NCBI GenBank assembly: GCA_019635715.1
Contig: JAHBYY010000031.1
Location: 1 to 48,741, forward strand
Reading direction: 5' to 3'
Length of the DNA: 48,741 nucleotides
Source of the DNA: Rhizobiaceae bacterium
GTDB taxonomy: Bacteria; Pseudomonadota; Alphaproteobacteria; Rhizobiales; Rhizobiaceae
Numbering within the stretch: the first letter of the stretch is position 1; each line of letters begins with the position of its first letter. The position numbers and the translations under genes were made by a program. The notes beneath the pieces were generated by a model. It was not told the origin of the DNA. It did no database searches and was given only the letters and a program-made list of their open reading frames with translations. This document shows positions 1,565 to 18,903 of the stretch, one piece after another.

Positions 1565-3739
1565 ATGGCCAATATCACCGGAACGCAGTTTCAGGACACC
1601 ATCCATGTGAAGAACGACGGTCACGCCGTCGTCGGCACAGAATTCACCACCGTCACCGCCTCCGCCGATACGATCAACGCCGGCGCCGGCAATGATTTCG
1701 TCTATGCCAATGAAGGCGACGACACGGTGAACGGCGAGAACGGCGAAGACTGGCTGGAGGGCGACGGCGGCGCCGACACGATCGACGGCGGCGACGGCAA
1801 CGACACGATCGTCGGGGGTCAGGGCGCGGACTCGATGTCGGGCGGCATCGGCAACGACGTGTTCCTGTTCCGCGCGGCCTCCGAGATCACCGGCCTGGCC
1901 GAGATCATCAATGGTGGCGCCGACGTCGACACGATCGACTTCTCGACGACGCTCGGCGACATCGCGCTCAACCTTGCCACCATCAGCAATGTCGAGCGCC
2001 TGCTGGTGAACGCCCAGACCATCACGCTGACGGCAAGTCAACTCGGTGCCTTCAGCTTCATCTCGTCCGGCGGCAATTTCGAGCGATTCACCCTGTCCGC
2101 GGCAGGCACCGTCGATCTCAGCAATGCCACCATTACCGGCATCGACGACTTTCGCGGCACAAGCGGCGCCGACACCTATATCTTCACCGGCGTCACGACC
2201 GGACAGATCGTCACGACGCTCGGCGGGGCCGACAAGGTCACCGGCAGCCTCGGCAACGACCAGATCGACGTGGGCGCCGGCACGGACACGGTCAATGCCG
2301 GCCTCGGCAACGACACGGTCATCGGCGGTGCGGACGCCGACACGCTGAACGGCGAGGACGGCAACGATACGATCCTCGGCGGCGCCGGGCTCGACACGCA
2401 GAGCGGCGGGATCGGCAACGACATCTTCCGCTTCGAATTCGTGTCCGACATTTCGGGCCTGGCCGAGATCATCGACGGCGGCGTCGACAACGACCGGCTC
2501 GACTTCCAGACGCTCAACGCGCAGGGCGCGGTCAATATCTCGAAGGCGGTCATCACCAGCGTCGAGGGCCTGTTCCTCAACGGCAACGACGTGACGCTGA
2601 CGGCGGCCCAGCTCGGCAACTTCTCGATCTTCAGCTCCGGCGGCAACTATGACCGCCTGATCCTGTCGGCCGCCGGCACGGCGGACCTGACGGGCGCCGA
2701 TATCGTCGGCATCGACGAATTCCGTGGCTCAAGCGGCGCCGACGTGTTCAATCTGACCGACGTGGTGAACGGCCAGTTCGTCGACGGCAGGGCCGGTACC
2801 GACACGATCACCGGCGGCATCGGCAACGATTCGCTATGGGGCGGCAACGATGGCGACTTCGTCGACGGCGCCGCCGGCAACGATTTCATCCGCGGCGGAC
2901 AGGCCGCCGACACGCTGAACGGCGGTATCGGCTACGACACCTTCCAGATGGAAGGCGTGTCCGACATCAGCGGGCTCGCCGAGAAGATCGACGGCGGCAA
3001 CGACGTCGACAAGCTGGACTTCCAGTCGCTCGGCGCCTTCGGCGCGGTCGATCTGACCAAGGCGTCCATCCTGAACGTGGAGCAGTTGTTCATCAATGCC
3101 AACGACGTCACGCTCACCTCGGCGCTGCTCGGCCGCTTCGAGACGATCAGCGGCAGCGGCAATACCGAACGACTGCTGATCTCGACCAACAGCACCGCCA
3201 ACCTGACGGGCGCCTCGATCTTCGGCATCGACGAGATCCGCGGCTCCAGCGGCAACAACGTCATCACGCTGACCGACGTGGCGAACGGCCAGACCGTCAA
3301 TGGCGGGTTCGGCAACGACCAGCTCGGCGGCGGACTGGGCAATGATGCGCTGAACGGCGAGGAAGGAGACGACCTGATCCTCGGCCGCCAGGGCAACGAC
3401 ACGCTGACCGGCGGCATCGGACTGGACAAGTTCTATTTCAACACGACGCTGAACGCCGCGACCAATCTCGATACGATCACCGACTACAACGTGATCGACG
3501 ACACGATCCGTCTGAACAACGATGTCTTCACCAAGCTGGCCGCCGGCACGCTGGCGACCGGCGCCTTCGTCGCCAACACGAGCGGCTTTGCCCAGGATGC
3601 CGGCGACCGGATCATCTACGAGACGGATACGGGGATCATCCGGTATGATCCGGACGGCACGGGCGCGCAGCTTTCGACGGCCTTCGCGGTGGTCGGCATC
3701 GGCCTGGGGATCACCGCGGACGATTTTTCCGTCTATTGA
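1565..3739 (+). CDS. RTX-type calcium-binding repeat protein
   Basis: A 724-residue protein made largely of RTX nonapeptide repeats (GGxGxDxxx), for example GNDTIVGGQGADSMSGG and GNDTVIGGADADTLNGEDG. Such repeats bind calcium after type I secretion, and there is no N-terminal signal peptide, as expected. Three long modules (starting near residues 99, 290 and 459) repeat a theme of SDISGLAEIIDGG, DVTLTAAQLG and GIDEFRGSSGAD, each followed by RTX repeats. The C-terminal 100 residues (FYFNTTLNAATNLDTITDYN to the acidic-aromatic end DDFSVY) match the usual tail of haemolysin-type calcium-binding proteins. No protease, lipase or adhesin domain is visible, so the function may be structural or surface-associated. 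The ribosome site AAAGGA precedes the ATG. No secretion genes are adjacent. Confidence 0.88.
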   Translation: MANITGTQFQDTIHVKNDGHAVVGTEFTTVTASADTINAGAGNDFVYANEGDDTVNGENGEDWLEGDGGADTIDGGDGNDTIVGGQGADSMSGGIGNDVFLFRAASEITGLAEIINGGADVDTIDFSTTLGDIALNLATISNVERLLVNAQTITLTASQLGAFSFISSGGNFERFTLSAAGTVDLSNATITGIDDFRGTSGADTYIFTGVTTGQIVTTLGGADKVTGSLGNDQIDVGAGTDTVNAGLGNDTVIGGADADTLNGEDGNDTILGGAGLDTQSGGIGNDIFRFEFVSDISGLAEIIDGGVDNDRLDFQTLNAQGAVNISKAVITSVEGLFLNGNDVTLTAAQLGNFSIFSSGGNYDRLILSAAGTADLTGADIVGIDEFRGSSGADVFNLTDVVNGQFVDGRAGTDTITGGIGNDSLWGGNDGDFVDGAAGNDFIRGGQAADTLNGGIGYDTFQMEGVSDISGLAEKIDGGNDVDKLDFQSLGAFGAVDLTKASILNVEQLFINANDVTLTSALLGRFETISGSGNTERLLISTNSTANLTGASIFGIDEIRGSSGNNVITLTDVANGQTVNGGFGNDQLGGGLGNDALNGEEGDDLILGRQGNDTLTGGIGLDKFYFNTTLNAATNLDTITDYNVIDDTIRLNNDVFTKLAAGTLATGAFVANTSGFAQDAGDRIIYETDTGIIRYDPDGTGAQLSTAFAVVGIGLGITADDFSVY

Positions 3740-3874: not shown

Positions 3875-5104
3875 TCAGCGGCGCGCCGGCTCCAGCACGT
3901 AGAGGCCGACATCGATGGTGCCGGCGCGGAAGCCCGCCTCGCAATAGGCAAGGTAGTATTCCCAGAGCCGGCAGAAGCCGATGCCGAAGCCCTGCTGGCG
4001 CTCGATGGCCGGCCAGGCCTGGAGGAAGCGGCGGCGCCATTCGGCGAGGGTGAGGGCATAGCCGAGACCGAAGGTCTGGCAGTAGGTGAGGGCGAGCCCG
4101 GCCCGCCTGGCCTGGTCGGCGATGATCGTCTTGGTCGGCAGCATGCCGCCGGGAAAGATGTGGCGCTGGATGAAATCGGCTTCGGCGCGATAGTTGGCGT
4201 AGCGGCTCTCGTCGATGGTGATCGCCTGCAGCACGGCGCGGCCGCCGGCGTTGAGCCGGTCGCGCAGCGTGCGGAAATAGTCCGGCCAGAACGCCTCGCC
4301 GACGGCCTCGATCATCTCGATCGAGACGATGCGGTCGTAGGAGGCCCGCTCGTCACGATAGTCGCGCAGCACGATGTCGACCTTTTCGGTGACGCCTTCG
4401 CGGTCGGCAAGCGCCCGAGCGTCGTCGTGCTGCTCGCGCGACAGGGTGAGCCCGGTCACCGCTGCGCCCTTGTGGGCGATGCGCGCCGCCAGCGCGCCCC
4501 AGCCGCAGCCGATCTCCAGCACGCGCATGCCGGGCTTGAGCTCCAGAAGCTCCACGATGCGGGCGAGCTTGGCGTCCTGCGCCTCCTCGAGCGACAGGTC
4601 GGCCTTCTCGTAGAGCGCCGCCGAATAGGTCATGCTGCGGTCCAGCCACAGCCGGTAGAAGGCGTTGCCGATATCGTAGTGATAGGCGATGTTGCGGCGG
4701 CTGCCCTTGCGGTCGTTGGCCCTCAGCAGGTGGCGCAGCCGGTTCAGCCAGCGCACCGGCTTCGTCGCGGTGATGTTGCGCTCCAGGGCGTCGAGATTGC
4801 GGGCGGCCAGCTCGATCACCAGCTCGACGTCCGGGCTCGACCAGTCGCCGTCGACATAGGCTTCGGCAAAGGCGATATCGCCGCCGAACACCAGCCGGCG
4901 GAGCGCCCGCCAGCGATGGATCCTGATCTCGGCATCGGGTCCTGGGTTCGGGGAGCGGATCGCCAATGTCTGTCCGGAAGGGGTGCGGACCGTCAGGCTG
5001 CCGACGTCCAAATTGCCGACCAGCCGGCGCAGGATGGAAACGCGGAAGCCGACGGGCGAGGCTCTCCTCGCAGAGGGCAGATTCTGCTCAGCTTCCGACG
5101 ACAT
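3875..5104 (-). CDS. cfa: Cyclopropane-fatty-acyl-phospholipid synthase
   Basis: A 409-residue S-adenosylmethionine-dependent enzyme that adds a methylene bridge across double bonds of phospholipid acyl chains. Visible motifs are YHYDIGNAFYRLWLD with MTYS (substrate end), VLEIGCGWGALA (SAM loop), SIEMIEAVGE and FIQRHIFPGGMLP, all typical of CFA synthases. Length is normal for the family (about 380-420). It is the third gene of a minus-strand operon: its start overlaps the end of the DUF1365 gene by 17 bp. FAD oxidoreductase, DUF1365 and CFA synthase are commonly adjacent in proteobacteria, and the set here is inferred to be driven by the ECF sigma promoter at 7315-7343. A related methyltransferase is encoded at 9803-10831. 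Confidence 0.93.
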   Translation of the reverse strand: MSSEAEQNLPSARRASPVGFRVSILRRLVGNLDVGSLTVRTPSGQTLAIRSPNPGPDAEIRIHRWRALRRLVFGGDIAFAEAYVDGDWSSPDVELVIELAARNLDALERNITATKPVRWLNRLRHLLRANDRKGSRRNIAYHYDIGNAFYRLWLDRSMTYSAALYEKADLSLEEAQDAKLARIVELLELKPGMRVLEIGCGWGALAARIAHKGAAVTGLTLSREQHDDARALADREGVTEKVDIVLRDYRDERASYDRIVSIEMIEAVGEAFWPDYFRTLRDRLNAGGRAVLQAITIDESRYANYRAEADFIQRHIFPGGMLPTKTIIADQARRAGLALTYCQTFGLGYALTLAEWRRRFLQAWPAIERQQGFGIGFCRLWEYYLAYCEAGFRAGTIDVGLYVLEPARR

Positions 5105-5915
5105 GGCCTCCGACTCTCCCCTGCGACGTCTCGACCGGCCCGCCGACGATCGTCACGGGCCGGTGCGGCGGAGCCGGGCGTGCCTTCAACCCGACTCCCT
5201 TGAGCCAGAGCAGCAGCGCCTCCCAATGGATGCCGGCAATGACCTTCAAGGTTAGCAGTGGATAGACAAAAAACGCACGAAGCAAGACCGCGTCCGTCAA
5301 ATCACGACGTTCCGCAGAGAAACCTGCGAAGATGATCGGTCCGCCGGCGTCGCTGCCGGTGATGTGGAGCGACAATCTCCCGGCGGGAGGGCGGATGCGG
5401 AACGCGTAGGACATTTCCATGCCCATGAAAGGCGACACGTAGAGCTCTTTGGAACAGGCCTGCACGATCTGGTCGCCCGTGCCCTCCGATACGGGGATCA
5501 GGTAGCTGTGGCGCTCGCCGAACGTGTTGTTGACCTCGTAGAGGATCGCCGCCAGCGTCGCGTCGCCTCGATGGCAGAAATAGACGCTGAGCGGATTGAA
5601 GGCGTAGCCGAGGATGCGCGGCATCGCCAGAAGGCGGATCGCGCCGCCGCCGGTATCGATCCCGGCGCTGGCGAGATGGCGCTCGACGTGCAGGCGCAGC
5701 GGCAGTCCGGAAGGATCGCCGTGGTCAGCGTCGTAGAAGCCGAACAGGTTGAAGCGGTTTCGGCCGAACAGCTTCAGCTTGCGGTCGAGCCCGTCGATTT
5801 CGTCGAGGTCGAGCAGCAGCGAGAACATCGAATAGGCGAGGCGGTGGCGGCGCGGCCGCAACCGCTGGTGCATCACCTTTCCGGCGTACAGAAAGGAGCG
5901 CAACGCCGAACTCAT
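5088..5915 (-). CDS. DUF1365 family protein
   Basis: A 275-residue protein recognisable by RRHRLAYSMFSLLLDLDEID near the N-terminus, followed by ILGYAFNPLSVYFCH and EVNNTFGERHSYLIP. These are hallmarks of DUF1365, a family of unknown biochemical role nearly always found between an FAD-dependent oxidoreductase and a CFA synthase. A lipid-linked function is inferred from context only. Its ATG overlaps the oxidoreductase stop (ATGA) and its end overlaps the CFA start, so translation is probably coupled across all three genes. Confidence 0.9.
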   Translation of the reverse strand: MSSALRSFLYAGKVMHQRLRPRRHRLAYSMFSLLLDLDEIDGLDRKLKLFGRNRFNLFGFYDADHGDPSGLPLRLHVERHLASAGIDTGGGAIRLLAMPRILGYAFNPLSVYFCHRGDATLAAILYEVNNTFGERHSYLIPVSEGTGDQIVQACSKELYVSPFMGMEMSYAFRIRPPAGRLSLHITGSDAGGPIIFAGFSAERRDLTDAVLLRAFFVYPLLTLKVIAGIHWEALLLWLKGVGLKARPAPPHRPVTIVGGPVETSQGRVGGHVVGS

Positions 5916-7267
5916 GCCGCATGCCTCTCGTGGCGCTCTGCGGCCGGCCGACCGATGACGATCCGCCCGGATTCGTCGGCGACCTGCCAGGGGCGCCGCA
6001 CGCCGCTGAGCTGCTCGGCGACGGCCAGCCCCGCCTGCAGCCCGTCCTCGTGGAAGCCGGCGCCGAAATAGGCGCCGCAGAACCAGGTGCGGCCCACGCC
6101 CTGCAGCGACCAGAGGGATTGCTGGGCCTGCAATGCGTCGCCGTCGAAGATCGGGTGCCGGTACGTTTCATGCCGGATGACGCTGTCCGGCCTCGGCTCG
6201 ATATTGGGGTTGAGCGTGACGAACAGCGGCGTGGAGGCGGGGATGCCCTGGAGCCGGTTCATCCAATAGGTGACGGACAGGGCGCGGGTCCCCTCGCGCT
6301 CCGAGGACAGGTAGTTCCAACTGGACCAGACCCGGCGCGCGCGGGGCATCAGCGCCGGATCGCAATGAAGCACCGCCTCGTTGCGGGTGTAGCCGAACCG
6401 GCCGAGGATCCGCTGTTCCTCGCGGCTCGGCCGGTCGAGCATCCCGAGCGCCTGGTCGGCGTGGGTCGCCAGCACGACGTGGTCGAAGCGGTCGCGACGA
6501 CCGCGCATGTCGACGATCTCGACGCCGTTGCCGTCGCGCAGCAGGGTGCGAGCCGCCGAGCCTGTCCGGATACGATCCGCGAGCCCCGCCGCCAGTCGGC
6601 GAACGTAGAGCCGGCTGCCGCCGTCGACGGTGCGCCATGCGGGCCGGTTCGCCAGCTTGAGCAGGCCGTGGTTCTGGCAGAAGCGGATGAAGGCCACGGC
6701 CGGGTAGCGGCCGATGTCGGCGGCCGGCGTCGACCAGATGGCGGCCGCCATCGGATAGAGGTGATCCTCGCGGAAGGCGGTTCCGTAGCCTTTGGCGTCA
6801 AGGTAGGCGGCCAGCGTGATGTCGCCCATGCGCGCCATGTCGCGCGGCGCTTCCCTGTAGAAGCGGATCAATTCCTGCAGCATGCGCCAGAACCGCGGCC
6901 GCACGATGTTGCCGGCCTGGGCGAACAGGCCGCCGAGCCCGCTGCCGGAATATTCGAGGCGTCCGTCGTCGAGCGAGACCGCGAACGACATGTCCGACGG
7001 CTTGGTGGGGATGGCGAGATGGCGGAACATCGCCGTCAGATTGGGATAGGTGACCTCGTTGTAGACGATGAAGCCGGTATCGACCGGGGTGCCCCGGCAA
7101 TCGACGGTGTTGCTGTGGCCGCCGAGACGGTCGTCCGCCTCGTAGAGCGTGACGCGATGGCGCTTCGAAAGCAGCCAGGCGGCCGACAGGCCGGAGACGC
7201 CGCTGCCGACCACCGCGATCTCCAGGCTGCCGTCCGCGGCGTCCGAGCCAAGGTTGCTGTCACTCAC
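5912..7267 (-). CDS. FAD-dependent oxidoreductase (amine-oxidase-like)
   Basis: A 451-residue flavoprotein. The N-terminal Rossmann motif AVVGSGVSGLSAAWLLSK and the following YEADDRLGGHSN are the FAD dinucleotide-binding and GG-doublet signatures of the amine oxidase/desaturase superfamily. Near the C-terminus, WFCGAYFGAGFHEDGLQAGL is the second FAD contact. The GTG at 7267 was chosen because the fold starts about 16 residues later and AGGGAG lies just upstream. It is the first gene of the operon with DUF1365 and cfa. In Rhodobacter sphaeroides, flavoproteins and CFA-like methyltransferases of the RpoE regulon contribute to furan fatty acid synthesis. A similar role here is plausible but unproven. 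Confidence 0.85.
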   Translation of the reverse strand: MSDSNLGSDAADGSLEIAVVGSGVSGLSAAWLLSKRHRVTLYEADDRLGGHSNTVDCRGTPVDTGFIVYNEVTYPNLTAMFRHLAIPTKPSDMSFAVSLDDGRLEYSGSGLGGLFAQAGNIVRPRFWRMLQELIRFYREAPRDMARMGDITLAAYLDAKGYGTAFREDHLYPMAAAIWSTPAADIGRYPAVAFIRFCQNHGLLKLANRPAWRTVDGGSRLYVRRLAAGLADRIRTGSAARTLLRDGNGVEIVDMRGRRDRFDHVVLATHADQALGMLDRPSREEQRILGRFGYTRNEAVLHCDPALMPRARRVWSSWNYLSSEREGTRALSVTYWMNRLQGIPASTPLFVTLNPNIEPRPDSVIRHETYRHPIFDGDALQAQQSLWSLQGVGRTWFCGAYFGAGFHEDGLQAGLAVAEQLSGVRRPWQVADESGRIVIGRPAAERHERHAA

Positions 7268-7314: not shown

Positions 7315-7343
7315 TTCTACGCTGGGCGGGCAGGGTCGGATCA
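7315..7343 (-). promoter_or_regulatory. Putative ECF sigma promoter for the oxidoreductase-DUF1365-cfa operon
   Basis: On the minus strand the sequence reads TGATCC, 17 bp, GTAGAA, ending about 48 bp before the GTG start at 7267. The same layout occurs at 7356-7384, 11856-11884 and 11915-11943. It resembles the TGATC-type -35 reported for RpoE/ChrR systems. The -35 boxes of this and the plus-strand promoter lie 12 bp apart. Confidence 0.72.
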
Positions 7344-7355
7344 TCGGGCCGCCGG

Positions 7356-7384
7356 TGATCCGGGCCCGGTTCCGGCGCGTAACA
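7356..7384 (+). promoter_or_regulatory. Putative autoregulatory ECF sigma promoter
   Basis: TGATCC at 7356-7361, a 17-bp spacer, then GTAACA at 7379-7384. Transcription would start at about 7391, which argues that the sigma factor's GTG at 7463, not the ATG at 7391, is the real start. Positive autoregulation is usual for ECF sigma factors with a ChrR partner. Confidence 0.7.
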
Positions 7385-7462: not shown

Positions 7463-8047
7463 GTGACGTCGACCGTGCCGGAGGAGCCCGAGAGCGGAGC
7501 CCGCGAGTTCGCGCTGCTCGTCGTCGCCGTCGCGCGGGAGGGCGACAGGGAGGCGTTCGCCAGATTGTTCCGGCACTTCGCGCCGCGCATCAAGAGCTTC
7601 ATGATGCGGTCCGGAATGGCCGCGCCCGCCGCCGAGGAACTGGCGCAGGAGACGATGCTGTCGGTCTGGCGCAAGGCGGGCTATTTCGACCCGTCGCGTG
7701 CCGCGGCCTCGACCTGGATCTTCACCATCGCCCGCAACCTGAAGATCGACAGGCTGCGCAGGGAGCGCCAGCCGGCCGATTTCGGCGATGCCGCCGATCC
7801 GAGCGACGAGCCGGACCAGCCCGCATCCGGCGAGAGCGTGATGATGGCGGCGCAGCGCGAAGCGCGCGTGCGCGCCGCCTTGAACAGCCTGTCGGAGGAG
7901 CAGGCGCAGATCGTGCGGCTCTCCTTCTACGGCGAGAAGCCGCAATCCGAGATCGCGCGTGAATTGGGCATTCCGCTCGGGACGGTGAAGTCCCGCGTCC
8001 GGCTCGCCATGACGCGCCTGCGCATGATTCTGGAAGACGAGAAATGA
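7463..8047 (+). CDS. ECF RNA polymerase sigma factor (RpoE/ECF11-like)
   Basis: Group IV sigma factor with region 2 (ELAQETMLSVWRKAGYFDP, then STWIFTIARNLKIDRLRRER) and region 4 (LSEEQAQIVRLSFYGEKPQ, then SEIARELGIPLGTVKSRVRL). Reading from GTG 7463 gives 194 residues. An in-frame ATG at 7391 would add 24 residues but coincides with the predicted transcription start, so the GTG (preceded by AGGCG) is preferred. The stop overlaps the start of the anti-sigma gene (ATGA), typical of rpoE-chrR. It probably directs transcription from the four TGATCC-N17-GTA sites in this region in response to singlet oxygen or a similar stress; the stimulus is inferred from the family. Confidence 0.9.
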   Translation: MTSTVPEEPESGAREFALLVVAVAREGDREAFARLFRHFAPRIKSFMMRSGMAAPAAEELAQETMLSVWRKAGYFDPSRAAASTWIFTIARNLKIDRLRRERQPADFGDAADPSDEPDQPASGESVMMAAQREARVRAALNSLSEEQAQIVRLSFYGEKPQSEIARELGIPLGTVKSRVRLAMTRLRMILEDEK

Positions 8048-8700
8048 CGATCAATCATCATCCCAGCGGCGAGACGCTGCTGCGCTTCGCTGCCGGCACG
8101 CTGCCTGCCGGGCCGAGGCTCATCGTGGCGGTGCATGTCGGCGGGTGCCCGGCCTGCCGGCGACAGGTGGCGGCGTTCGAGGCGATCGGCGGCGCTCTGC
8201 TCGACGCGGGCGAACCGGTCGGGATGGCGAGCGATGCGCTGGAGCGGATGATGGCGCGGATCGACCGCGAGCCGGGCCGCCCCCAGGGCGCGGCGGCGGC
8301 GATCAGGCTGCCGCGCGCCGAACTGGGCATCGCGCTGCCTGAGGCAATGGACGCCTGCGGCATCGGTCCGTGGCGGTGGCTCGGCCCCGGGCTGCGCTGG
8401 AGCCGGGTCACGGTACAGGGCGCTCCGGAGGCCAATGTCATGCTGCTGCGCGTCGCGGCGGGCAAGACGCTGCCGGAGCACACGCATTCGGGCAGCGAGT
8501 TCACCCAGGTGCTGAAGGGATCGTTCAGCGACGCGCGGGGCCGCTACCTGCCGGGCGACATGGACGAGGCCGACGCCGAGGTCGACCACACTCCGGTCGT
8601 CGACGCGGACGGGGAGTGCATCTGCGTCGCGGCAATCGACGGACAGATGAAATTGACCGGCTTCGTCGGGCGCGTGGTCCAGCGCTTCGTCTCGTTCTAG
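8044..8700 (+). CDS. chrR: ChrR-family zinc-binding cupin anti-sigma factor
   Basis: A 218-residue anti-sigma factor. The N-terminal zinc anti-sigma domain has His6, His31, Cys35 and Cys38 (HVGGCPAC), the same ligand set as described for R. sphaeroides ChrR. The C-terminal half is a cupin with HTHSGSEFTQVLKG. The family holds its ECF sigma factor inactive and releases it on photooxidative or lipid-peroxide stress. Translation is coupled to the sigma gene by an ATGA overlap. The stop TAG is formed at the junction with the MITE inserted immediately downstream. Confidence 0.9.
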   Translation: MTINHHPSGETLLRFAAGTLPAGPRLIVAVHVGGCPACRRQVAAFEAIGGALLDAGEPVGMASDALERMMARIDREPGRPQGAAAAIRLPRAELGIALPEAMDACGIGPWRWLGPGLRWSRVTVQGAPEANVMLLRVAAGKTLPEHTHSGSEFTQVLKGSFSDARGRYLPGDMDEADAEVDHTPVVDADGECICVAAIDGQMKLTGFVGRVVQRFVSF

Positions 8701-8964
8701 GGCCTGTTGAGTATCAGCACGCGGGCTGCGTTGGAGGCAAAATCGATGTTGAACAGGAGAAAAGCGCAAGGCGGTGTTGACCACCGTCGAGCATTTTCGA
8801 CGCATTCAGCATCGATTTTGACCCAACCCCGAAGGGGCCGGGCGCAAATCGGCCATTTCGGCGTCGCTCGTCGTCGAATATGCGCTGCATGTCCTTCCTC
8901 CTCGCTCCTGGAACTGGCCGATTTTCGCCACGGCGCAGCCCGTGCGATGATACTCAACAGACCC
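8700..8964. mobile_element. 265-bp MITE with long terminal inverted repeats
   Basis: The ends read GGGCCTGTTGAGTATC (left) and, on the other strand, GGGTCTGTTGAGTATC (right). The inverted similarity continues imperfectly for about 60 bp, sharing GGGCTGCG, AAAATCG and CAGGAG at equal positions. TA flanks both ends (8698-8699 and 8965-8966), consistent with a TA target duplication. No transposase is encoded, so it would need one in trans. It lies between the anti-sigma gene and the DUF1295 gene. Removing it with one TA restores chrR ending TAG, then 5 bp, then the DUF1295 ATG. Both strands carry 86-codon open frames ending ILNRP, which arise from the inverted symmetry. Confidence 0.88.
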
Positions 8965-8972
8965 TAGCCGAA

Positions 8973-9806
8973 ATGCCTGCCGCCTGGCTCGCCATCGGCA
9001 TCGCCGTCGCGCTTTCGGCGACGATGGCCGGGGCCTGGGCCGTGGCGCTCGGCAGCGGCAGATCGGGCTGGATCGACGCGATCTGGTCGTTTGCAGTCGG
9101 TATCTTCGGGGTGATCGCCAGCCTGTCTCAGATCGGCGCCGGGGACTGGCTTCCGAGGCAGATGCTGGTCGCCGCACTTGCCGGGCTCTGGTCGCTGCGG
9201 CTCGGCCTGCATATCGCACGCCGGACGCTGCAAGGCGGCGACGATCCGCGCTACGCGCAGTTGCGCCAGGACTGGGGTTCCGGTTTCCGCGGACGGCTGC
9301 TGCTGTTCCTGCAGATCCAGGCGGCCGCCGGGTTCTTCCTGGTGCTGGCGATCATGGCGGCGGCGCACCATCCCGCGCCGTCCATGCGGCTTGCGGACTG
9401 GCTCGGGGTCGCCGTCCTCGTCGTGGCGATTGCCGGCGAGGCTGCCGCCGATCGCCAGTTGTCGCGGTTTCGGGCCGATCCCGCCAACAGGGGCAAGGTC
9501 TGCGACGCCGGATTTTGGGGGATGACCCGCCATCCGAACTATTTTTTCGAATGGCTCGGGTGGGTCGCCTATGCGGTCATCGCCATGGACCTGACGGGCG
9601 CCTATCCGTGGGGATGGCTGGCGCTGGCCGGGCCTGCGCTGATGTACTGGCTGCTCGTCCACGCCTCAGGGATTCCGCCGCTGGAAGCCCACATGCTGCG
9701 CTCGCGCGGCGATGCGTTCCGGGCCTACCAGCGCCAGGTGAACGCCTTCTGGCCGGGGCCGCGCCGCGTTGCGCACGAACAGCAACCACAGGGGACATCC
9801 CGATGA
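8973..9806 (+). CDS. DUF1295 family membrane protein (steroid-reductase-like fold)
   Basis: A 277-residue multi-spanning membrane protein. The C-terminal motif MTRHPNYFFEWLGW, then SGIPPLEAHMLRSRGDAF and YQRQVNAFWPG, is diagnostic of DUF1295, related to isoprenylcysteine methyltransferases and steroid 5-alpha reductases. It likely acts on membrane lipid. The ATG at 8973 lies 8 bp beyond the MITE end and has no clear ribosome site. Before the insertion it would have been translationally coupled to chrR. A longer frame starting inside the MITE (ATG at 8880) is open but adds a sequence unlike the family. Its stop overlaps the next start (ATGA). Confidence 0.87.
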   Translation: MPAAWLAIGIAVALSATMAGAWAVALGSGRSGWIDAIWSFAVGIFGVIASLSQIGAGDWLPRQMLVAALAGLWSLRLGLHIARRTLQGGDDPRYAQLRQDWGSGFRGRLLLFLQIQAAAGFFLVLAIMAAAHHPAPSMRLADWLGVAVLVVAIAGEAAADRQLSRFRADPANRGKVCDAGFWGMTRHPNYFFEWLGWVAYAVIAMDLTGAYPWGWLALAGPALMYWLLVHASGIPPLEAHMLRSRGDAFRAYQRQVNAFWPGPRRVAHEQQPQGTSR

Positions 9807-10831
9807 GCCTCATCGCCTCCGCCATTCGCGTCGTCGAACGAAGCCCGCTGCCCGACCCGGTGACGCGCGCCGGCATCGAGTTTCTCGTCGGGCGCACGCG
9901 CCGCCGGCTGGCGGGAGAGGGGCAGGACGACGACGCCGCCTTTCTCCGGGAGATGGGCAGCTATCCCGTTGCGGATCACGCCGACGCGGCCAACGAGCAG
10001 CATTACGAACTGCCTCCCGAGTTCTTCGAACTGACGCTCGGGCCGCGCCGCAAATATTCCTGCTGTCTCTACAAGAGCGGGTCGGAAACGCTCGATCAGG
10101 CGGAGATCCTGGCCCTCGAGGAGACCGTCGCGCATGCCGGGCTCGCCGACGGCCAGTCCATCCTCGAACTCGGCTGCGGCTGGGGTTCGCTGACCCTGTT
10201 CATGGCCGAGCGCTTTGCGCGCGCCCGCATCACCGCCGTCTCGAACTCCAGGCCGCAGCGGCTCCATATCGAAGGCGAGGCGCGCCGGCGCGGCCTGACG
10301 AACGTCACGGTGATCACCGCCGACATGAACGGCTTCGCGCCGGACGGCCGCTTCGACCGGATCGTATCGGTGGAGATGTTCGAGCACATGTCGAACTGGC
10401 AGGCCTTGCTGGAACGCGTGCGCGGCTGGCTGCTGCCGGACGGCCGGCTGTTCGTCCACGTCTTCACCCACCGGAACAGCCCGTACCGCTTCGACCATCG
10501 CAACGATGCCGACTGGATCGCCCAACACTTCTTCACCGGCGGCATCATGCCGAGCCATGGGCTGATCGGCCGCTTCCCGGACTGCTTCGTCGTGGAGCGG
10601 GATTGGCGTTGGAACGGCCTGCACTACCGGAAGACCGCGATCGACTGGCTGGCCCGGTTCGATAGGAACCGCGGCGGGATCGACCGCATCCTGCGCGAGG
10701 TCTACGGGGCGGACGCCGCCGTGTGGCGGCGTCGCTGGCGGTTGTTCTACCTCGCGACGGCCGGTCTCTTCGGGCATGCCGGCGGAACGGAATGGGGCGT
10801 CAGTCACTATCTGCTGAGACCGGTGCCCTGA
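9803..10831 (+). CDS. SAM-dependent methyltransferase, CFA synthase-like
   Basis: A 342-residue enzyme with SILELGCGWGSLTLFMAE (SAM loop), ANEQHYELPPEFFELTLGPR with KYSCCLY (acyl-substrate end), SVEMFEHMSNW and ADWIAQHFFTGGIMPSH. It is shorter than the synthase at 3875-5104 and lacks its N-terminal domain. It resembles the coclaurine-N-methyltransferase/CFA-like group, to which the furan-fatty-acid methyltransferase UfaM also appears related. ATG 9803 overlaps the DUF1295 stop. Co-transcription with the sigma operon makes it a likely stress-induced acyl-chain methylase; the exact product is unknown. Confidence 0.85.
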   Translation: MSLIASAIRVVERSPLPDPVTRAGIEFLVGRTRRRLAGEGQDDDAAFLREMGSYPVADHADAANEQHYELPPEFFELTLGPRRKYSCCLYKSGSETLDQAEILALEETVAHAGLADGQSILELGCGWGSLTLFMAERFARARITAVSNSRPQRLHIEGEARRRGLTNVTVITADMNGFAPDGRFDRIVSVEMFEHMSNWQALLERVRGWLLPDGRLFVHVFTHRNSPYRFDHRNDADWIAQHFFTGGIMPSHGLIGRFPDCFVVERDWRWNGLHYRKTAIDWLARFDRNRGGIDRILREVYGADAAVWRRRWRLFYLATAGLFGHAGGTEWGVSHYLLRPVP

Positions 10832-10845
10832 GCCGGCGGTTCGGG

Positions 10846-11436
10846 ATGGAGACACCGCGCAAGCTGTGGGGCCGTGTCGGCGCCTATGCGTCGCACGAGG
10901 ATCCGCTCGTGGCCGCCTCGAACTGGGTGGCGCTGGTGGTCGCGTGGAACCAGCCCTTCTATCCGCTCTATCTCTATCCCATCGTCGGCGAGCGCCTGGC
11001 GCCGTCGCTGCTGACCTTCCTGTCGACGCCGCTGTTCCTGGCGATTCCGGCCGTCGCGCGCCGGCGGCCGCTGCTCGCCCGCGCGCTGCTGCCCGTCGTG
11101 GGCATGGCCAACACGATGATCACGGCGAAGGCGCTGGGGGTTCAGTCCGGCGTCGAGACTTTCCTGATCCCGTGCGCGCTGATCGCCGCCGGCTTCTTCC
11201 GGCCGCCGGAGCGGGCCGTCGGTCTGCCGCTCGTCGGCCTGGCCTTCGCCATCTACTGGCTGATGCACGACAGATATGGAGCGCCGCTGGCCGCCTATTC
11301 CGGGGAGGAATATGCTTCGCTGTCCAGCCTCAACGCCCTGAGTGCTGCGACCCTGACCGTCTTCGTCGGCCTGCTGCTGGCGGGGCTCGCCGGACCGCGC
11401 CGCGCCGCGCCGGATCAGGGAGACGGCACGACATAG
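10846..11436 (+). CDS. Small multi-spanning membrane protein of unknown function
   Basis: A 196-residue hydrophobic protein with about six predicted membrane helices (for example ASNWVALVVAWNQPFYPLYL, TFLSTPLFLAIPAV and LSAATLTVFVGLLLAGLAG). The ATG at 10846 was chosen because it is the first good codon after the methyltransferase stop (15 bp gap) and starts just before the first helix. It is the last gene of the sigma-chrR-DUF1295-methyltransferase operon. Its end overlaps the convergent DUF2177 gene by 22 bp. I do not recognise the family; a role in lipid modification is contextual only. Confidence 0.7.
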   Translation: METPRKLWGRVGAYASHEDPLVAASNWVALVVAWNQPFYPLYLYPIVGERLAPSLLTFLSTPLFLAIPAVARRRPLLARALLPVVGMANTMITAKALGVQSGVETFLIPCALIAAGFFRPPERAVGLPLVGLAFAIYWLMHDRYGAPLAAYSGEEYASLSSLNALSAATLTVFVGLLLAGLAGPRRAAPDQGDGTT

Positions 11437-11825
11437 CGGGTGACGAGGAAGCCGGCGGTCGCCGATACAGCCGAGACGAACGTGCCCCAGCACAGGTCGG
11501 CGATGGTTATGATGGTCGGCCAGCCCTTGATCGTCGCCTGGTTGGTCAGGTCGTAGGTGGCGTAGGCGAAGAAGCCGAACAATGCGCCATAGAGGGCCGC
11601 CGTCGTCCATTTTCCGCTGGCGAAGGCGGGCGACAGCGCAAAGACCATCAGGCCTGCGATGTACAGGACATAGAAGGCGATCGCCGGGGCCAGGTTGAAG
11701 CCGTCGACCAGGACGTGGCCGAGCAGCGGCCGGTACAGCCTTTCCGCCATGACGCCCAGCCAGATCGCATCGATGCCGAGAAACACCGCGCCGGTCGCGA
11801 CATAGGCGATGAGGTAGGATTTCAT
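11415..11825 (-). CDS. DUF2177 family membrane protein
   Basis: A 136-residue membrane protein with four predicted helices. AYVATGAVFLGIDAIWLGVM at the N-terminus, then LYRPLLGHVL and GALFGFFAYATYDLTNQATI, are characteristic of DUF2177. Its function is unknown, but the family is often linked with CFA, DUF1365 and DUF1295 genes. An ECF-type promoter (11856-11884) lies about 31 bp before the ATG on the minus strand, which places it in the same regulon. Confidence 0.88.
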   Translation of the reverse strand: MKSYLIAYVATGAVFLGIDAIWLGVMAERLYRPLLGHVLVDGFNLAPAIAFYVLYIAGLMVFALSPAFASGKWTTAALYGALFGFFAYATYDLTNQATIKGWPTIITIADLCWGTFVSAVSATAGFLVTRYVVPSP

Positions 11826-11855: not shown

Positions 11856-11884
11856 TTTTACGCGCGTCCGGCGAGAGCGGATCA
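11856..11884 (-). promoter_or_regulatory. Putative ECF sigma promoter for the DUF2177 gene
   Basis: On the minus strand: TGATCC (11879-11884), 17-bp spacer, GTAAAA (11856-11861). The -35 is one half of a perfect inverted repeat GGATCATGCCCG / CGGGCATGATCC, whose other half is the -35 of the divergent promoter at 11915-11943. Confidence 0.72.
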
Positions 11885-11914: not shown

Positions 11915-11943
11915 TGATCCGATCGGTGCCGCAGCGCGTAGAC
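11915..11943 (+). promoter_or_regulatory. Putative ECF sigma promoter for the DUF2147 gene
   Basis: TGATCC (11915-11920), 17-bp spacer, GTAGAC (11938-11943), 27 bp before the ATG at 11971. It is the fourth site with identical spacing and is divergent from 11856-11884. Confidence 0.7.
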
Positions 11944-11970: not shown

Positions 11971-12354
11971 ATGGCGCGCAGGACGATCGCGGCAATTCTG
12001 GTGATGCTGGCTACGGTGGCGGGAGCCGATGCCGTCGAAGGCGGACCGGATCCGAGCGGGGTCTGGCTGCGCGGCGACGGCAATGCGCGTGTGAGGATCG
12101 CGCCCTGCGGCGCCAAGATCTGCGCCACGAATCTGTGGATCAAGGATAGCAGCGGCGGCGAGGAGGTCGGCGACCGCCTCGTCATGACGGTCAAGCCGAA
12201 GAATGCGTCGACGCTCAGCGGCAAGGCCTTCGACGTCAAGCGCAACATGACCTATGCCATCGACATCACGGTCAAGAGGTCCAGCCTGACGACGCGCGGC
12301 TGCATCGTCGGCGGCCTGGTCTGCAAGGCGGTGAACTGGTCCAGGGCGAAGTGA
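11971..12354 (+). CDS. DUF2147 family exported protein
   Basis: A 127-residue predicted periplasmic protein. A signal peptide (RRTIAAILVMLATVAGADA) precedes GVWLRGDGNARVRIAPCG, KICATNLWIKD, and the C-terminal RGCIVGGLVCKAVNWSRAK, which follow the DUF2147 pattern of paired cysteines and a final W.R. Function is unknown. The ATG at 11971 follows GGAGG by six bases. The upstream TGATCC-N17-GTA promoter suggests it is induced with the lipid-modification genes. The S1/P1 nuclease gene begins 65 bp downstream on the same strand and may be co-transcribed. Confidence 0.82.
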   Translation: MARRTIAAILVMLATVAGADAVEGGPDPSGVWLRGDGNARVRIAPCGAKICATNLWIKDSSGGEEVGDRLVMTVKPKNASTLSGKAFDVKRNMTYAIDITVKRSSLTTRGCIVGGLVCKAVNWSRAK

Positions 12355-13313: not shown

Positions 13314-14630
13314 AGCAGGCTGCTGAAAAAGCTTCACCGGTTTGCGATTTGGTGATTCACTTCTGCGGTCATTTGTCGGAGTGATTTTCGATGCGCGGAC
13401 GAGATGATCGGGAGGAAGGTCTTTTCAGCTATGTGCGGCTTGAGGATCGGGTGCCTTCGGATCACCCGCTGCGGCCGATCCGCAAACTTGCAGACGAGGC
13501 GCTTGGCGAGTTGAACGAGCGTTTCGAAGCGCTCTATTCACGGATGGGACGGCCGTCGATCCCGCCCGAGATGCTGTTGCGGGCGACGCTGCTGCAGGCC
13601 TTCTTCTCGGTACGCTCCGAGCGGCTTCTGATGGAGCAGATCGACTACAATCTCTTGTTCCGCTGGTTCGTCGGCCTGCCGATTGACGCGGCTGTGTGGC
13701 ATCCGACGGTGTTCACGCACAATCGCGACCGGCTGATGGAGGCGGATGTGGCGCATGCGTTCCTGGGCGCGCTGATGCGGCTTCGACAGGTCAAGCGGCT
13801 TCTGTCGAGCGACCATTTCTCGGTCGACGGCACGCTGATCGACGCCTGGGCCTCGATGAAGAGTTTTCGGCCGAAGGACGGTTCGGGCGAGCCGCCGGGA
13901 CCGGGCCGCAATGGGGAGCGCGATTTCCGCAAGGAGAAGCGGTCGAACGAGACGCATGTCTCCACCACCGATCCCGATGCGCGGCTCTACAAGAAGAGCG
14001 ACGGCCAGCCGAGCCGTCTGTGCTTCATGGGCCATGTCCTGATGGAGAACCGCAACGGGCTGGCGGTCGATGCGACGCTGACCCACGCCACCGGCACGGC
14101 GGAGCGGGAAGCAGCACTCGCCATGCTCGACCGCAGGGGCGCCAGACGCCGCATCACGCTCGGCGCCGACAAGGCCTATGACGTGGAAAAATTCGTCGGC
14201 GATCTGCGTGAACGCGAGGTGACGCCGCACATCGCCGTGCAAGGCGTCGTCTCCAAGACCGGCAAGCCGCGCAAGACGGCGATCGACGGGCGCACGACGC
14301 GCCACCCCGGCTACGCGATCAGCCAGCGTTGCCGCAAGCGGATCGAGGAGGTCTTTGGTTGGGTCAAGAAGCCGGGCGGACTGGCGAAGGTCAAACTGTG
14401 GGGACGAAGAAAGGTCGATGCCGCCTTCACCTTCACCGTCATCGCCTACAACCTGATCCGGCTGCCAAAGCTCATTGCCGGGCAGCCCGCCTGACCCGCC
14501 AAACGCCGCAAATCAGCCGCACTCCCGCACTCGAACCCGGCGCCACACGGCCAAAATGACGCCAGGCAAAACCAAATGCACCATCCAACGAGAAAATCCG
14601 CTCGCAGCCCTGCTTCTTCAGCAGCCTGCT
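13314..14630 (+). mobile_element. IS5-family insertion sequence, apparently intact
   Basis: A 1317-bp element bounded by 19-bp terminal inverted repeats AGCAGGCTGCTGAAAAAGC (13314-13332) and its partner at 14612-14630, with one mismatch. A TA dinucleotide occurs at both junctions (13313-13314 and 14630-14631), which fits a 2-bp TA target duplication as in the IS427 subgroup. The single transposase gene is full length. It lies immediately downstream of gguB, and its right end provides part of that gene's stop codon. Confidence 0.9.
13391..14494 (+). CDS. IS5-family transposase
   Basis: A 367-residue DDE transposase. The N-terminal DUF772-type region contains RPSIPPEMLLRATLLQAFFS and IDYNLLFRWFVGLPID. 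The catalytic core shows Asp146 (HFSVDGTLIDAW), Asp260 (TLGADKAYD) and Glu319/320 in RCRKRIEEVFGWVK. The frame is uninterrupted and the inverted repeats are present, so the element may still be mobile. Confidence 0.93.
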   Translation: MRGRDDREEGLFSYVRLEDRVPSDHPLRPIRKLADEALGELNERFEALYSRMGRPSIPPEMLLRATLLQAFFSVRSERLLMEQIDYNLLFRWFVGLPIDAAVWHPTVFTHNRDRLMEADVAHAFLGALMRLRQVKRLLSSDHFSVDGTLIDAWASMKSFRPKDGSGEPPGPGRNGERDFRKEKRSNETHVSTTDPDARLYKKSDGQPSRLCFMGHVLMENRNGLAVDATLTHATGTAEREAALAMLDRRGARRRITLGADKAYDVEKFVGDLREREVTPHIAVQGVVSKTGKPRKTAIDGRTTRHPGYAISQRCRKRIEEVFGWVKKPGGLAKVKLWGRRKVDAAFTFTVIAYNLIRLPKLIAGQPA

Positions 14631-15921
14631 AGCCCTTGTTCTTGTTGTAGACGTCGAACACGACGGCCCCGAGCAGCACCAGGCCCTTCACCACCTGCTG
14701 CCAGTCGACGTTGACGCCCATGATCGACATGCCGTTGTTCATCACACCCATGATGAAGCCGCCGACGACCGCCCCGATGACCTGACCGACGCCGCCCATC
14801 GCCGAAGCGCCGCCGATGAACACGGCGGCGATGACGTCGAGCTCGCTGCCGAGGCCGGCCGCCGGCACCGCCTGACCGAGGCGGGCCGCGATGATCAGCC
14901 CGCCGAGCGCCGACAGGACCCCCATGTTGATGAACACGAAAAGGGTCAGCCGCTCGATGTTGATGCCGGACAATTGCGCGGCCTTGGCGTTGCCGCCCAT
15001 GGCGTAGATGCGCCGGCCGATCGTCATCCTCTTGGTGACGAAGACGAACAGAGCGATCAGCAGGCCCATGACCACCAGGACGATCGGCAGGCCCCGGTAG
15101 GTCGCGAACTGGTAGACCAGGAACAGAATAAGGGCGCTGATGACCAGCGTCTTGACGGTGAACAGCGTGAAGGGCTCGGCCTGGTAGCCATGTGCCTCGC
15201 GCGTCCGGCGCGCCTTGAGGCCGAAATAGATGTAGGCCAGCACGCCGATGATGCCGACGACGACCGTCGTCATGTGCAGGGTCAGGCCGCTGCCGACGAT
15301 GGTCTTGCCGGCGGCATTCACCACGGGGGGAACGATCGTCCATGACCCGATCAGGTCGGGAACGAAGCCTGAGCTGAGCGCCTTGAAACCATCCGGAAGC
15401 GGTCCGACCGACGAGCCGCCGCCAAGCAGCGCCTGGCACATGCCGCGGAAGATCAGCATGCCGGCCAGGGTGACGATGAAGCTCGGTATTCGATGGTAGG
15501 CGACCCAGTAGCCTTGCGCCGCGCCGATCGCGGCGCCGATCACCAGGCAGACGAGCGACACGACGAGCGGATTGCTGAGGAAGCCGAGAGGCCAGATGAC
15601 CATCATCATGGCGGCGAGCGCGCCGATGAAGCCCGCCACCGAACCGACGCTGAGGTCGATGTGTCCGGACACGATCACCAGGAGCATGCCCAGCGCCATC
15701 ACGATGATGAAGCTGTTCTGCTGCACCAGGTTCGAGAGGTTCACCGGCTTGAACAGCGTGCCGTTGGTGGTGAACTGGAAGAAGATCATGATGGCGATGA
15801 GCGCCAGCACGAGGCCGTATTCGCGCAGGTTGGTCACCAGCGCAGAGACCGCGACGCGCTGCACCTGCGGCACGCTCTCGGCGACGCCCGACTGCGGTGC
15901 CGGTGTGCTTTCGGTGCTCAT
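14629..15921 (-). CDS. gguB: Sugar ABC transporter permease (GguB/MmsB/XylH type)
   Basis: A 430-residue inner-membrane permease with about ten helices. Segments such as [55 protein letters not shown] and [20 protein letters not shown] are typical of the BPD_transp_2 family of sugar importers. The start overlaps the gguA stop (ATGA). The stop TAG lies at the IS junction: without the IS it would read TAA at the same codon, so the protein is unchanged. The gene order chvE-gguA-gguB matches the Agrobacterium multiple-sugar uptake locus. Confidence 0.92.
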
Positions 15922-17450
15922 GCTGCTTTTCCTTCTCCTCGCACGATGGCGCGCATGATCTTCTCCTGGCTGGCGTCCGCCGCCGCCATCTCGCCGACGA
16001 TGCGTCCTTCATTCATGACGTAGATGCGGTCGGTGATGCCCAGCAATTCAGGCATCTCCGACGAGATGACGATGACGGCGCGGCCCTCGGCCGCGAGCCG
16101 CGCGATGATGGTGTAGATCTCGTACTTGGCGCCGACGTCGATGCCGCGCGTCGGCTCGTCAAGGATCAGGACTTGCGGGTTGGCGAACAGCCATTTGGAC
16201 AGAACCACCTTCTGCTGGTTGCCGCCCGAGAGGTTGCCCGTCATCTGGTAGACGCTCGACGCCCGGATGTTGGTCTTGCCGCGGTAGTCGTTGGCGGTGG
16301 CAAGCTCGCGCAAATCGTCGATCACGCCGTGCGTCGACACACCGCGGAGATTGGCCAGCGTGATGTTGTGCTTGATGTGGTCGATCAGGTTGAGGCCGTA
16401 GGTCTTGCGGTCCTCCGTGACGTAGGCGATGCCGTGTTCGATCGCCTTGCCCACCGTCGAGACGTCGATCGGCCTGCCCCTGAAGACGACTTCGCCGGTG
16501 ATGCCGCGCCCGTAGGAGCGCCCGAACAGGCTCATCGCGAACTCGGTGCGCCCGGCGCCCATCAGCCCGGCGATGCCGACCACCTCGCCCTTGCGCACAT
16601 TGAGGTCGATGCCCTTGATGACCTGCCGGTCGGCGTGCAGCGGATGATAGACCGACCAGTTCCTAACTTCGAAGACGATCTCGCCGATCTTGGGTTCACG
16701 TGGCGGATAGCGGTCGTCGAGCGAGCGGCCGACCATCGAGGTGATGATGCGATCCTCGGTGACATCCTGCCTGGCCAGCGTTTCGATGGTCCTGCCATCG
16801 CGAATGATCGTGACGTGATCGGCGACGCGGCTGACCTCGTTCAGCTTGTGCGAGATGAGGATGGAGGTGATGCCCTGGCGCTTGAACTCGAGCAGCAGGT
16901 CGAGCAGGCCCTGACTGTCCTTCTCGGAGAGGCTGGCCGTCGGCTCGTCGAGGATGAGCAGCCGCACTTCCTTGCTCAGCGCCTTGGCGATTTCCACGAG
17001 CTGCTGCTTGCCGACGCCGATATTGGTGATGAGCGTCTTGGGATCCTCGTTGAGGCCCACCTTCTTCAACAGGGCGCGCGTGCGGGCCTCGTTGGCGTTC
17101 CAGTCGATGACGCCGTATCTGGCGTGCTCGTTGCCGAGGAAGATGTTCTCGGCGATCGACAGCATCGGCACCAGCGCCAGTTCCTGGTGGATGATGACGA
17201 TGCCCTGATGTTCGCTGTCGTGGATGCCTTTGAAGTGGCAGTCCTGGCCGCGATAGATGATCTTGCCGTCATAGGTGCCCGAGGGATAGACGCCCGACAG
17301 CACCTTCATGAGTGTCGATTTGCCGGCGCCGTTCTCGCCGACGATGGCATGGATCTCACCCTCCTCGACCCTGAGATTGACGTTGGACAGCGCCTTGACG
17401 CCGGGAAACGTCTTGGTGATGTCGCGCATCTCCAAAATCGTCGAGGCCAT
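15918..17450 (-). CDS. gguA: Sugar ABC transporter ATP-binding protein (GguA/MmsA type)
   Basis: A 510-residue duplicated ATPase. First domain: Walker [13 protein letters not shown] and the Walker B region [11 protein letters not shown]. Second domain: the degenerate P-loop [10 protein letters not shown] usual in this family, signature [13 protein letters not shown] and Walker [13 protein letters not shown]. The ATG at 17450 starts [20 protein letters not shown], the usual N-terminus; GGAGGAG lies about 11 bp upstream. It is separated from chvE by 100 bp holding a hairpin (17505-17538), which probably lowers its expression relative to the binding protein. Confidence 0.93.
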
Positions 17451-17504
17451 TGGGAATGCCGCTCCTCCGATGTCCCGGAACAATACCGGGGCCGCCATGC
17501 AACG

Positions 17505-17539
17505 AAAAGGGCCCCGCACGCAGAGGCGGAGCCCTTTTT
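17505..17539 (-). terminator. Hairpin (partial terminator/RNA stabiliser) between chvE and gguA
   Basis: Two 13-nt arms (AAAAGGGCCCCGC and GCGGAGCCCTTTT on the plus strand) enclose an 8-nt loop. On the minus-strand RNA the single mismatch becomes a G-U pair, and the hairpin ends in a U-run. Its place just after the binding-protein gene is typical of differential expression in ABC importers. Confidence 0.7.
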
Positions 17540-17550
17540 GTCTCGATGCC

Positions 17551-18621
17551 TTACTTGAGCTCTTCGGCCTTGATGTAGCCGGAGTCGACGACCAGCGCCT
17601 GATAGTTCGACTTGTCGACCTCATGCGGCGTCAGCAGGATCGAGGGGACGATCTTGACGTCGTTGTTGTAGGTCTTCTCGTCGAGGCCTTCCGGCTTGCC
17701 GCCCGACAGGACCTTGTCGACCAGTTCGACCGTCGCCTTGGCCAGTTCGCGGGTGTCCTTGAACACGGTCGAATACTGTTCGCCCGAGATCAGCAGCTTG
17801 ACGGAGGCGGTCTCGGCGTCCTGGCCGGTCACGATCGGCCAGGGCTGGGCGTCGGTGCCGTAGCCGACGGCGCGCAGCGAGGCGGTGATGCCGCGCGACA
17901 GGCCGTCATAGGGCGAGAGCACGCCGTCGACGCGGCTGCCGTCCGAGTAGTTGGCGGACAGCAGGTTGTCCATGCGCGCCTGCGCCGTGGCCGCGAGCCA
18001 GCGCAGCGTGCCGACCTTGTCCATGCCGGTCTGGCCCGACTTGATGTTGATCGAGCCGTCATCGATCAGCGGCTGCAGGACGCTCATCGCGCCGTCATAA
18101 AAGAAGAACGCATTGTTGTCGTCCGGCGAGCCGCCGAACAGTTCGACGTTCCACGGCTTGGTGTCCGGGAAGCGCTCCTTGAGGCCCTTGACCAGCGAGT
18201 CGGCCTGAATCACGCCGACGCCGAAATTGTCGAAGGTCGTGTAGTAGTCGACATTCGCCGTCTTCTTGATCAGGCGATCGTAGGCGACGACGACGACACC
18301 GGCGTCGGCGGCCTTCTGCAGCGCATCCGACAGGGTGGTGCCGTCGATCGAGGCGATGATCAGCGCCTTCGGACCCTTGGTGATCTCGTTCTCGAGCTGG
18401 CTGAGCTGGTTCGGAATGTCGTCCTGCGCGTATTGCAGGTCGACCGTATAGCCCAGCGCCTCGAGCTGGGACTTGACGGCGTCGCCGTCGTTGATCCAGC
18501 GCTGCGACGTCTTGGTCGGCATCAGCACGCCGACGAGGCCCTTGTCCTGCGCATGCGCGGCGAGCGGCATGGTTGCAAGGCCGAGCGCCAGCGCGCCGAC
18601 CAATGCCTTGATGATTTTCAC
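17551..18621 (-). CDS. chvE: Periplasmic sugar-binding protein (ChvE-like)
   Basis: A 356-residue substrate-binding protein. It starts with GTG at 18621 (AAGGGAG upstream) and has a signal peptide ending in PLAAHA after residue 24. The mature protein opens [20 protein letters not shown] and contains [40 protein letters not shown] and [14 protein letters not shown], close to the ChvE/XylF group. ChvE binds several aldoses, including L-arabinose, D-galactose and D-glucose. It is the first gene of the transporter operon and is divergent from the LysR regulator. Confidence 0.92.
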
Positions 18622-18868: not shown

Positions 18869-18903
18869 GGCTCTGCCCCTGCGTCACCACGGAGAGGGGC
18901 GGG

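Follow-up and report, generated by a model that had tools for sequence, protein, structure and literature searches.

The best described relatives of the cluster analysed here are the RpoE–ChrR (ECF11) systems. The ECF11 core regulon comprises about eight genes, including rpoE–chrR and furan fatty acid genes (PMC6852236), and for R. sphaeroides six core-regulon genes other than sigma are tabulated, which code for a short-chain dehydrogenase, a lipoprotein, homologs of UfaO and UfaD, a photolyase and a CFA synthase (PMC5507510). UfaD, UfaO (a DUF1365 protein) and UfaM produce 9M5-FuFA, a furan fatty acid, in both R. sphaeroides and R. palustris (PMC7380195), homologs of this pathway occur in bacteria and plants (PMC7380195, PMC10940516) and furan acids are needed for the turnover of ChrR in R. 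sphaeroides (PMC6852236). Singlet oxygen or an organic hydroperoxide is described as the signal in most of the ECF11 relatives studied.

The promoter motif has been reported from several bacteria. That of V. cholerae SigmaE–ChrR is TGATC-N16-18-CGTAW (PMC5241685); TGATCC-N16-CGTA stands in four of the five promoters listed for Shewanella oneidensis RpoE2, for which the start of rpoE2 has been mapped and induction of the targets observed (PMC4336711); and ChIP-seq with MEME gave several TGATCC-N16-CGTA sites for P. syringae PSPTO_1043, the motif being present in 87 of 137 peaks and many bound sites lying inside genes as well (PMC5507510). The motif is what these systems share with the present locus. 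The V. cholerae SigmaE–ChrR and S. oneidensis RpoE2–ChrR systems differ in having gammaproteobacterial regulons with other members, such as pgpD and phrB (PMC5241685, PMC4336711), and PSPTO_1043/1042 differs in that the ufa homologs occupy a separate phrB locus and several of its targets are peculiar to P. syringae (PMC5507510).

The layout also has a precedent. In S. maltophilia a nine-gene cluster (smlt2375-smlt2367), in which an FAD oxidoreductase and a pair of CFA synthases are encoded, is divergent from rpoEc-chrR-chrA; deleting chrR raises seven of its genes 165- to 313-fold, and their levels come back down in a chrR/rpoEc double mutant (PMC11832516). Shared with our locus is the divergent lipid cluster, which in S. 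maltophilia is sigma-dependent by transcriptome, with an autoregulated sigma factor; the differences are the presence there of chrA, a desaturase and a lipocalin, and the absence of a TGATC motif from the main text of that report (PMC11832516). The S. maltophilia system affects tolerance of superoxide and not of singlet oxygen (PMC11832516), so that the signal in the present case may not be singlet oxygen either. Prior art from S. maltophilia covers the divergent layout as well as the presence of a second CFA synthase in the regulon, and both the motif and the layout described below are already known from published ECF11 systems; the recognition sequence that the first-pass annotation took these sites to define for the sigma factor is the published ECF11 motif and not a new one. 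The available text of four further papers (PMC3420878, PMC3597554, PMC3441632, PMC10940516) holds nothing that alters the ECF11 reading.

The window (the whole stretch of DNA analysed, 48,741 nt) contains four sites of this kind, which are very probably the promoters of an autoregulated ECF11 (RpoE–ChrR) sigma factor. This reading is built on the sequence, placement and conservation of the sites and on the family membership of the genes, from which we infer binding by the sigma factor and the inducing signal. The cluster is composed as follows.

3875-5104, minus strand: CMAS methyltransferase 1, candidate UfaM (PF02353, 278 bits)
5088-5915, minus strand: DUF1365 protein, candidate UfaO (PF07103, 267 bits)
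5912-7267, minus strand: flavin amine-oxidase-like protein, candidate UfaD (PF01593, 83 bits; presumed GTG start)
7315-7343, minus strand: ECF11-type promoter of the left arm (ufaD-ufaO-ufaM-like operon), exact TGATCC-N17-GTANNA
7356-7384, plus strand: ECF11-type promoter of sigma-chrR (autoregulation), exact TGATCC-N17-GTANNA
7463-8047, plus strand: RpoE-type ECF11 sigma factor (open frame checked)
8044-8700, plus strand: ChrR anti-sigma factor, overlapping the sigma gene by 4 bp
8697-8967, no strand assigned: short insertion element (49-bp inverted repeats; CTAG at either end), splitting chrR from DUF1295
8973-9806, plus strand: DUF1295 membrane protein, steroid 5-alpha-reductase-like (PF06966, 222 bits, scan from 8880)
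9803-10831, plus strand: CMAS methyltransferase 2, distinct from CMAS 1 (PF02353, 131 bits, scan from 9767)
10846-11436, plus strand: open reading frame without family assignment, last in the right arm (presumed start)
11415-11825, minus strand: DUF2177 membrane protein (PF09945, 156 bits)
11856-11884, minus strand: ECF11-type promoter of DUF2177, exact TGATCC-N17-GTANNA (same placement in L077, L082, L084 and L088)
11915-11943, plus strand: probable ECF11-type promoter of DUF2147, exact TGATCC-N16-CGTA
11971-12354, plus strand: DUF2147 protein (PF09917, 47 bits; presumed start)

The sigma factor carries ECF regions 2 and 4 (Pfam Sigma70_r2/r4), and its top PDB match is R. sphaeroides RpoE (PDB code 2q1z, 160.9 bits; runner-up 78.3 bits). 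ChrR passes TIGR02451 (231.2 bits against a cut-off of 124.5) and matches best, among PDB entries, the R. sphaeroides complex (2z2s_B, 130.2 bits); with the equivalog model NF051881 it scores 201.3 bits, where 300 are required. It contains the zinc ligands H6, H31, C35 and C38 and the cupin ligands in the signature HxHxxxE...H. An ECF11-type TGATC(C)-N16-CGTA promoter (site 7356-7384) precedes sigma-chrR and, judged by these matches, the pair is an RpoE–ChrR (ECF11) system. Translation of the sigma factor probably starts at GTG 7463, 82 nt past the promoter site; an in-frame ATG at 7391 is possible, and its use would leave hardly any leader. Alignment-based extrapolation puts the corresponding distance from site to start within 52-144 nt for 20 of 21 sigma sites; the last one gives 206 nt.

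As in R. sphaeroides, the sigma factor and a zinc/cupin anti-sigma factor lie together, and homologs of UfaD, UfaO and UfaM, which belong to the core regulon there, are at hand (PMC6852236, PMC7380195, PMC5507510). Unlike the R. sphaeroides system, the window adds DUF1295, a second CMAS, DUF2177 and DUF2147, and the photolyase gene is found elsewhere in the genome (contig C72) with only an N17-spaced candidate site (TGATCCG-N16-CGTA) about 220 bp upstream. By eye, this candidate falls inside a 44-codon open reading frame of the opposite strand.

Two patterns were scored, a strict one (TGATCC-N17-GTANNA) and a relaxed one (TGATCC-N16-CGTA). The window has three matches to the strict pattern where 0.02 would be expected, and none of 100 dinucleotide shuffles of the window reached three or more matches, in agreement with the earlier claim that the sites are unlikely to have arisen by chance. 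The orientations and neighbouring genes originally given for the sites are likewise correct. The claim of four matches with the same spacing stands for TGATCC-N17-GTA, which all four share; GTA-N-N-A is present in three only, the -10 element of the site at 11915-11943 (+) reading GTAGAC and missing the final A of the strict pattern, while TGATCC-N16-CGTA fits all four (7315, 7356, 11856 and 11915). A fifth exact TGATCC-N16-CGTA in the window, absent from the first-pass annotation, is found at 6762-6787 (+), antisense within the oxidoreductase gene, with a T after TGATCC where all 43 placed sites defined below have a purine. It was rejected as a promoter and is read as a coding coincidence, since a counterpart inside the same oxidoreductase gene in one relative (L082) also has T after TGATCC.

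The genome (4.57 Mb, 151 contigs, 85% complete) holds four strict matches; three are the window sites and the remaining one is antisense, at the start of another gene. The relaxed pattern gives nine matches, five of them within the window, their gene context being judged from open frames and GC3 rather than by a gene caller. Just the four cluster sites lie in promoter position, correctly oriented before a gene. Three more (that at 6762 included) run antisense within genes, and the remaining two lie between genes or at gene ends, facing the 3' end of a neighbour. Allowing one mismatch yields 216 matches against 73 for the reversed pattern, which is uninformative. CTAG is expected to be rare, and the reversed pattern is a lenient control because it contains this tetranucleotide. 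Two matches with 15-base spacing, on contigs C1 and C65 (the latter between genes that by eye belong to Fur-like and caspase-like families), were judged weak as promoters because TGATCC-N15-CGTA occurs 0 times in 450 kb of sequence from relatives.

This comparison set consists of 30 relative loci (450,436 bases) picked for having the sigma factor or ChrR, and was used for counts of spacing and ordering. Matches to TGATCC-Nk-CGTA number 51 with k = 16, and no other k from 8 to 25 gives more than three; each of 179 other letter orderings of the -35 element gives at most seven matches, and each of 23 other orderings of the -10 element at most three. For the placement of sites, the sample was the window with the 26 relatives that have a linked sigma factor (L065-L090). 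Four loci of the 30-locus set (L091-L094: three orphan-ChrR loci with a site and one without) and the linked locus of genome G039 (L046, no site) stand outside it, so that the placed-site sample leans slightly towards loci with sites. It contains 47 exact sites, of which 43 head genes of the system: 21 the sigma factor, 15 the UfaD-like oxidoreductase, five DUF2177 and two DUF2147. Of the other four, two are inside the UfaD gene and two have no recognised gene (L075, near a contig end, and L073, downstream of chrR).

An exact site precedes the sigma gene in 20 of the 26 relatives and the oxidoreductase (ufaD homolog) in 14; an adjacent divergent sigma/UfaD pair with both sites exact is seen in nine (L065, L066, L067, L068, L072, L074, L077, L081 and L084). 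L069, from Hyphomicrobiales UR115, is one of those with an exact ufaD site. No exact site was found before the sigma gene in six relatives (L069, L071, L087, L088, L089 and L090), and in a less selected set an exact site lies upstream of the linked sigma gene in 12 of 17 relatives and is missing in five. The base following TGATCC is a purine in every placed site (24 G, 19 A), whereas the final A of GTA-N-N-A, offered earlier as part of the rule, is present in just 20 of the 43 and was dropped from the motif; TGATCCR-N15-CGTA is therefore the better consensus. Among 60 relatives, in which presence of the sigma factor was called by a match at E<=1e-25, the mean number of exact hits per genome is 6.2 with the sigma factor (n = 30) and 4.5 without (n = 30; one-sided p = 0.017). 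The two groups differ only weakly, and with this high background it is placement that carries the argument, the pattern alone being unspecific. Position, orientation and spacing recur before the same genes, which supports the original proposal of divergent ECF-sigma promoters for the two arms of a lipid-modification cluster. The cluster can be assigned to a known oxidative-stress system, and a reading first made from the bare sequence is confirmed. As a side observation, a linked sigma-chrR pair is present in none of the three same-genus genomes (G001-G003), G001 having an orphan ChrR and an unlinked sigma factor, and the cluster is thus patchy within the genus.

The site before DUF2147 is the least supported of the four. 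It is conceivable, if rather unlikely, that only three sites are functional and that the fourth is a by-product of a 12-bp inverted repeat, GGATCATGCCCG...CGGGCATGATCC, which it forms with the third. The missing last A would fit this, although the same A is wanting in more than half of the placed sites and the fourth site is an exact TGATCCR-N15-CGTA. DUF2147 was detected in just three of 27 loci (the window and 26 relatives); in L082 it lacks an exact site to itself, the adjoining one pointing to DUF2177, whereas in L070 an exact site does precede it. What the repeat spans is the -35 box together with the sequence separating the two -35 boxes, and the presence of CGTA at the correct distance in the fourth site is therefore independent of it.

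There is very little to recommend the idea that the boxes are read by another ECF sigma factor or form an operator for a DNA-binding regulator. The initial sigma search returned 31 candidate stretches in the window's genome, and further sigma genes may therefore exist there; relatives without the window's sigma factor still have motif hits. However, the genome has one match only to the window's sigma factor at E<=1e-25, the 16-bp spacing is fixed, the -35/-10 polarity is toward a system gene in 43 of 47 sites and the same motif has been tied experimentally to ECF11 in other bacteria (PMC4336711, PMC5507510, PMC5241685). A chance origin, or one from coding constraint given the GC-rich genome, to which five of the nine exact genome matches lying outside promoter position might point, can practically be dismissed in view of the shuffles, the spacing peak (51 against at most three) and the recurrent placement across 26 relatives.

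As promoters of an autoregulated ECF11 sigma factor, the four sites suggest the following course of events. ChrR would keep the sigma factor inactive until an oxidative signal releases it, and the freed sigma factor would direct RNA polymerase to start at the four TGATCCR-N15-CGTA promoters. Leftward transcription would yield the UfaD-, UfaO- and UfaM-like furan-fatty-acid set; rightward transcription would yield sigma-chrR and then, if polymerase passes the inserted element, DUF1295 and the second CMAS. The second divergent pair would drive DUF2177 and DUF2147. Given that ChrR turnover in R. sphaeroides needs furan acids, a common promoter region would link the two halves of the feedback.

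By Pfam, the left arm combines a CMAS, a flavin oxidoreductase and a DUF1365 protein in a single gene run, the same three-domain set as R. palustris RPA2569-2571 (PMC7380195). Its domains make it a candidate UfaD-, UfaO- and UfaM-like furan-fatty-acid set, the product of which would presumably be a furan fatty acid.

In the right arm, the 271-bp insertion element is placed exactly at the chrR stop codon. Its 49-bp inverted repeats are 80% complementary and its ends recur at three further places in the genome (contigs C31, C46 and C84; 87-98% alike). Removal of the element would leave about 5 nt between chrR and DUF1295, the spacing expected for one operon, and transcription of the right arm may run through the insertion. 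DUF1295 is located downstream of chrR in several relatives as well; in L065, L068 and L084 some 900 bp separate chrR from the right arm. The second CMAS is divergent, scoring 131 bits with PF02353 against 278 bits for CMAS 1, and has homologs of 62-70% identity in eight relatives, beside DUF1295 in seven, while the eighth locus (L067) ends at that point. FufM (RPA0924 of R. palustris) is a furan fatty acid methylase that methylates 9M5-FuFA, and a FufM-like role is a possible prediction for this second CMAS. The open reading frame closing the right arm (10846-11436) has no homolog among the 26 relatives, and its 10849-11433 stretch is without a match in Pfam and NCBIfam.

With gene runs defined by gaps of less than 400 bp and no opposite-strand hit between genes, DUF2177 is present in 16 loci and, in 14 of them, is part of a run with an exact site at its head; the corresponding figures are five of ten loci for DUF1295, four of nine for the second CMAS and two of three for DUF2147.

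Among the literature matches listed, no report was found that names DUF2177, DUF1295 or DUF2147 in a ChrR regulon, although the original core-regulon list may name some of them; judged by titles and the beginnings of abstracts, none of three papers that mention DUF2177 concerns a bacterial ChrR system. A single paper among those listed, on Chlamydomonas reinhardtii, mentions any of the three families (PMC4067076). Its 104 SAK1-dependent singlet-oxygen genes include CFA1, CFA2, DUF1365, DUF2177 and DUF1295 (PMC4067076, Table 5). The alga thus resembles the window in two CFA proteins and the DUF1365, DUF2177 and DUF1295 families, matched by family name only, and differs in its eukaryotic regulator, SAK1, and the absence of a sigma factor (PMC4067076). 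The paper itself likens only CFA to R. sphaeroides (PMC4067076), and a later review names GPX5 and CFA synthases as shared and notes that algal furan acids are being looked for (PMC8491031); the recurrence of the wider family set between window and alga is an observation of the present analysis, at the family level only. It may be, though we would put it somewhat below an even chance, that DUF2177, DUF1295, DUF2147 and the second CMAS are working parts of an ECF11 furan/methyl-branched fatty-acid response, and that the two CFA proteins, DUF1365, DUF1295 and DUF2177 constitute a singlet-oxygen lipid module common to alphaproteobacteria and green algae. DUF1295, DUF2177 and DUF2147, families of unknown function, are candidate partners for furan fatty acid metabolism, and with these families recurring in Chlamydomonas the idea of a common lipid module is open to direct testing.

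A different arrangement was noted in 13 of the 60 relatives, where the closest sigma homolog and the ChrR-family gene are on different contigs (ChrR loci L050, L052-L057, L059-L061, L063 and L064; sigma loci L126-L138). In a tree with 27 linked sigma factors, the 13 unlinked ones are all found on the same side of a branch with strong support (99/99). The orphan ChrR proteins, 12 of which were examined from the 13 genomes, all have the cupin ligands, and HxxxCxxC is present in none of the 12. An exact TGATCC-N16-CGTA lies shortly upstream of the orphan chrR gene in ten of the 12, farther up in L053 and nowhere in L064, and none of the 13 unlinked sigma genes has an exact site within 400 bp (best, two to three mismatches). 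From these sequences, the orphan-ChrR set looks like a rewiring in which only the zinc-less anti-sigma factor is fed back. Among sigma-linked ChrR proteins, two of 17 (L051 and L062) are without both zinc cysteines and L039 is without the second.

The surroundings of the cluster were inspected by eye. The gene at 1565-3739 encodes a large protein with an abundance of GGxGxD-like calcium-binding repeats. Downstream of the cluster lie an open reading frame resembling a DDE transposase (13391-14494) and genes of a sugar-type ABC transporter (permease, ATPase and binding protein; 14629-19929) adjoining a LysR-type regulator gene.
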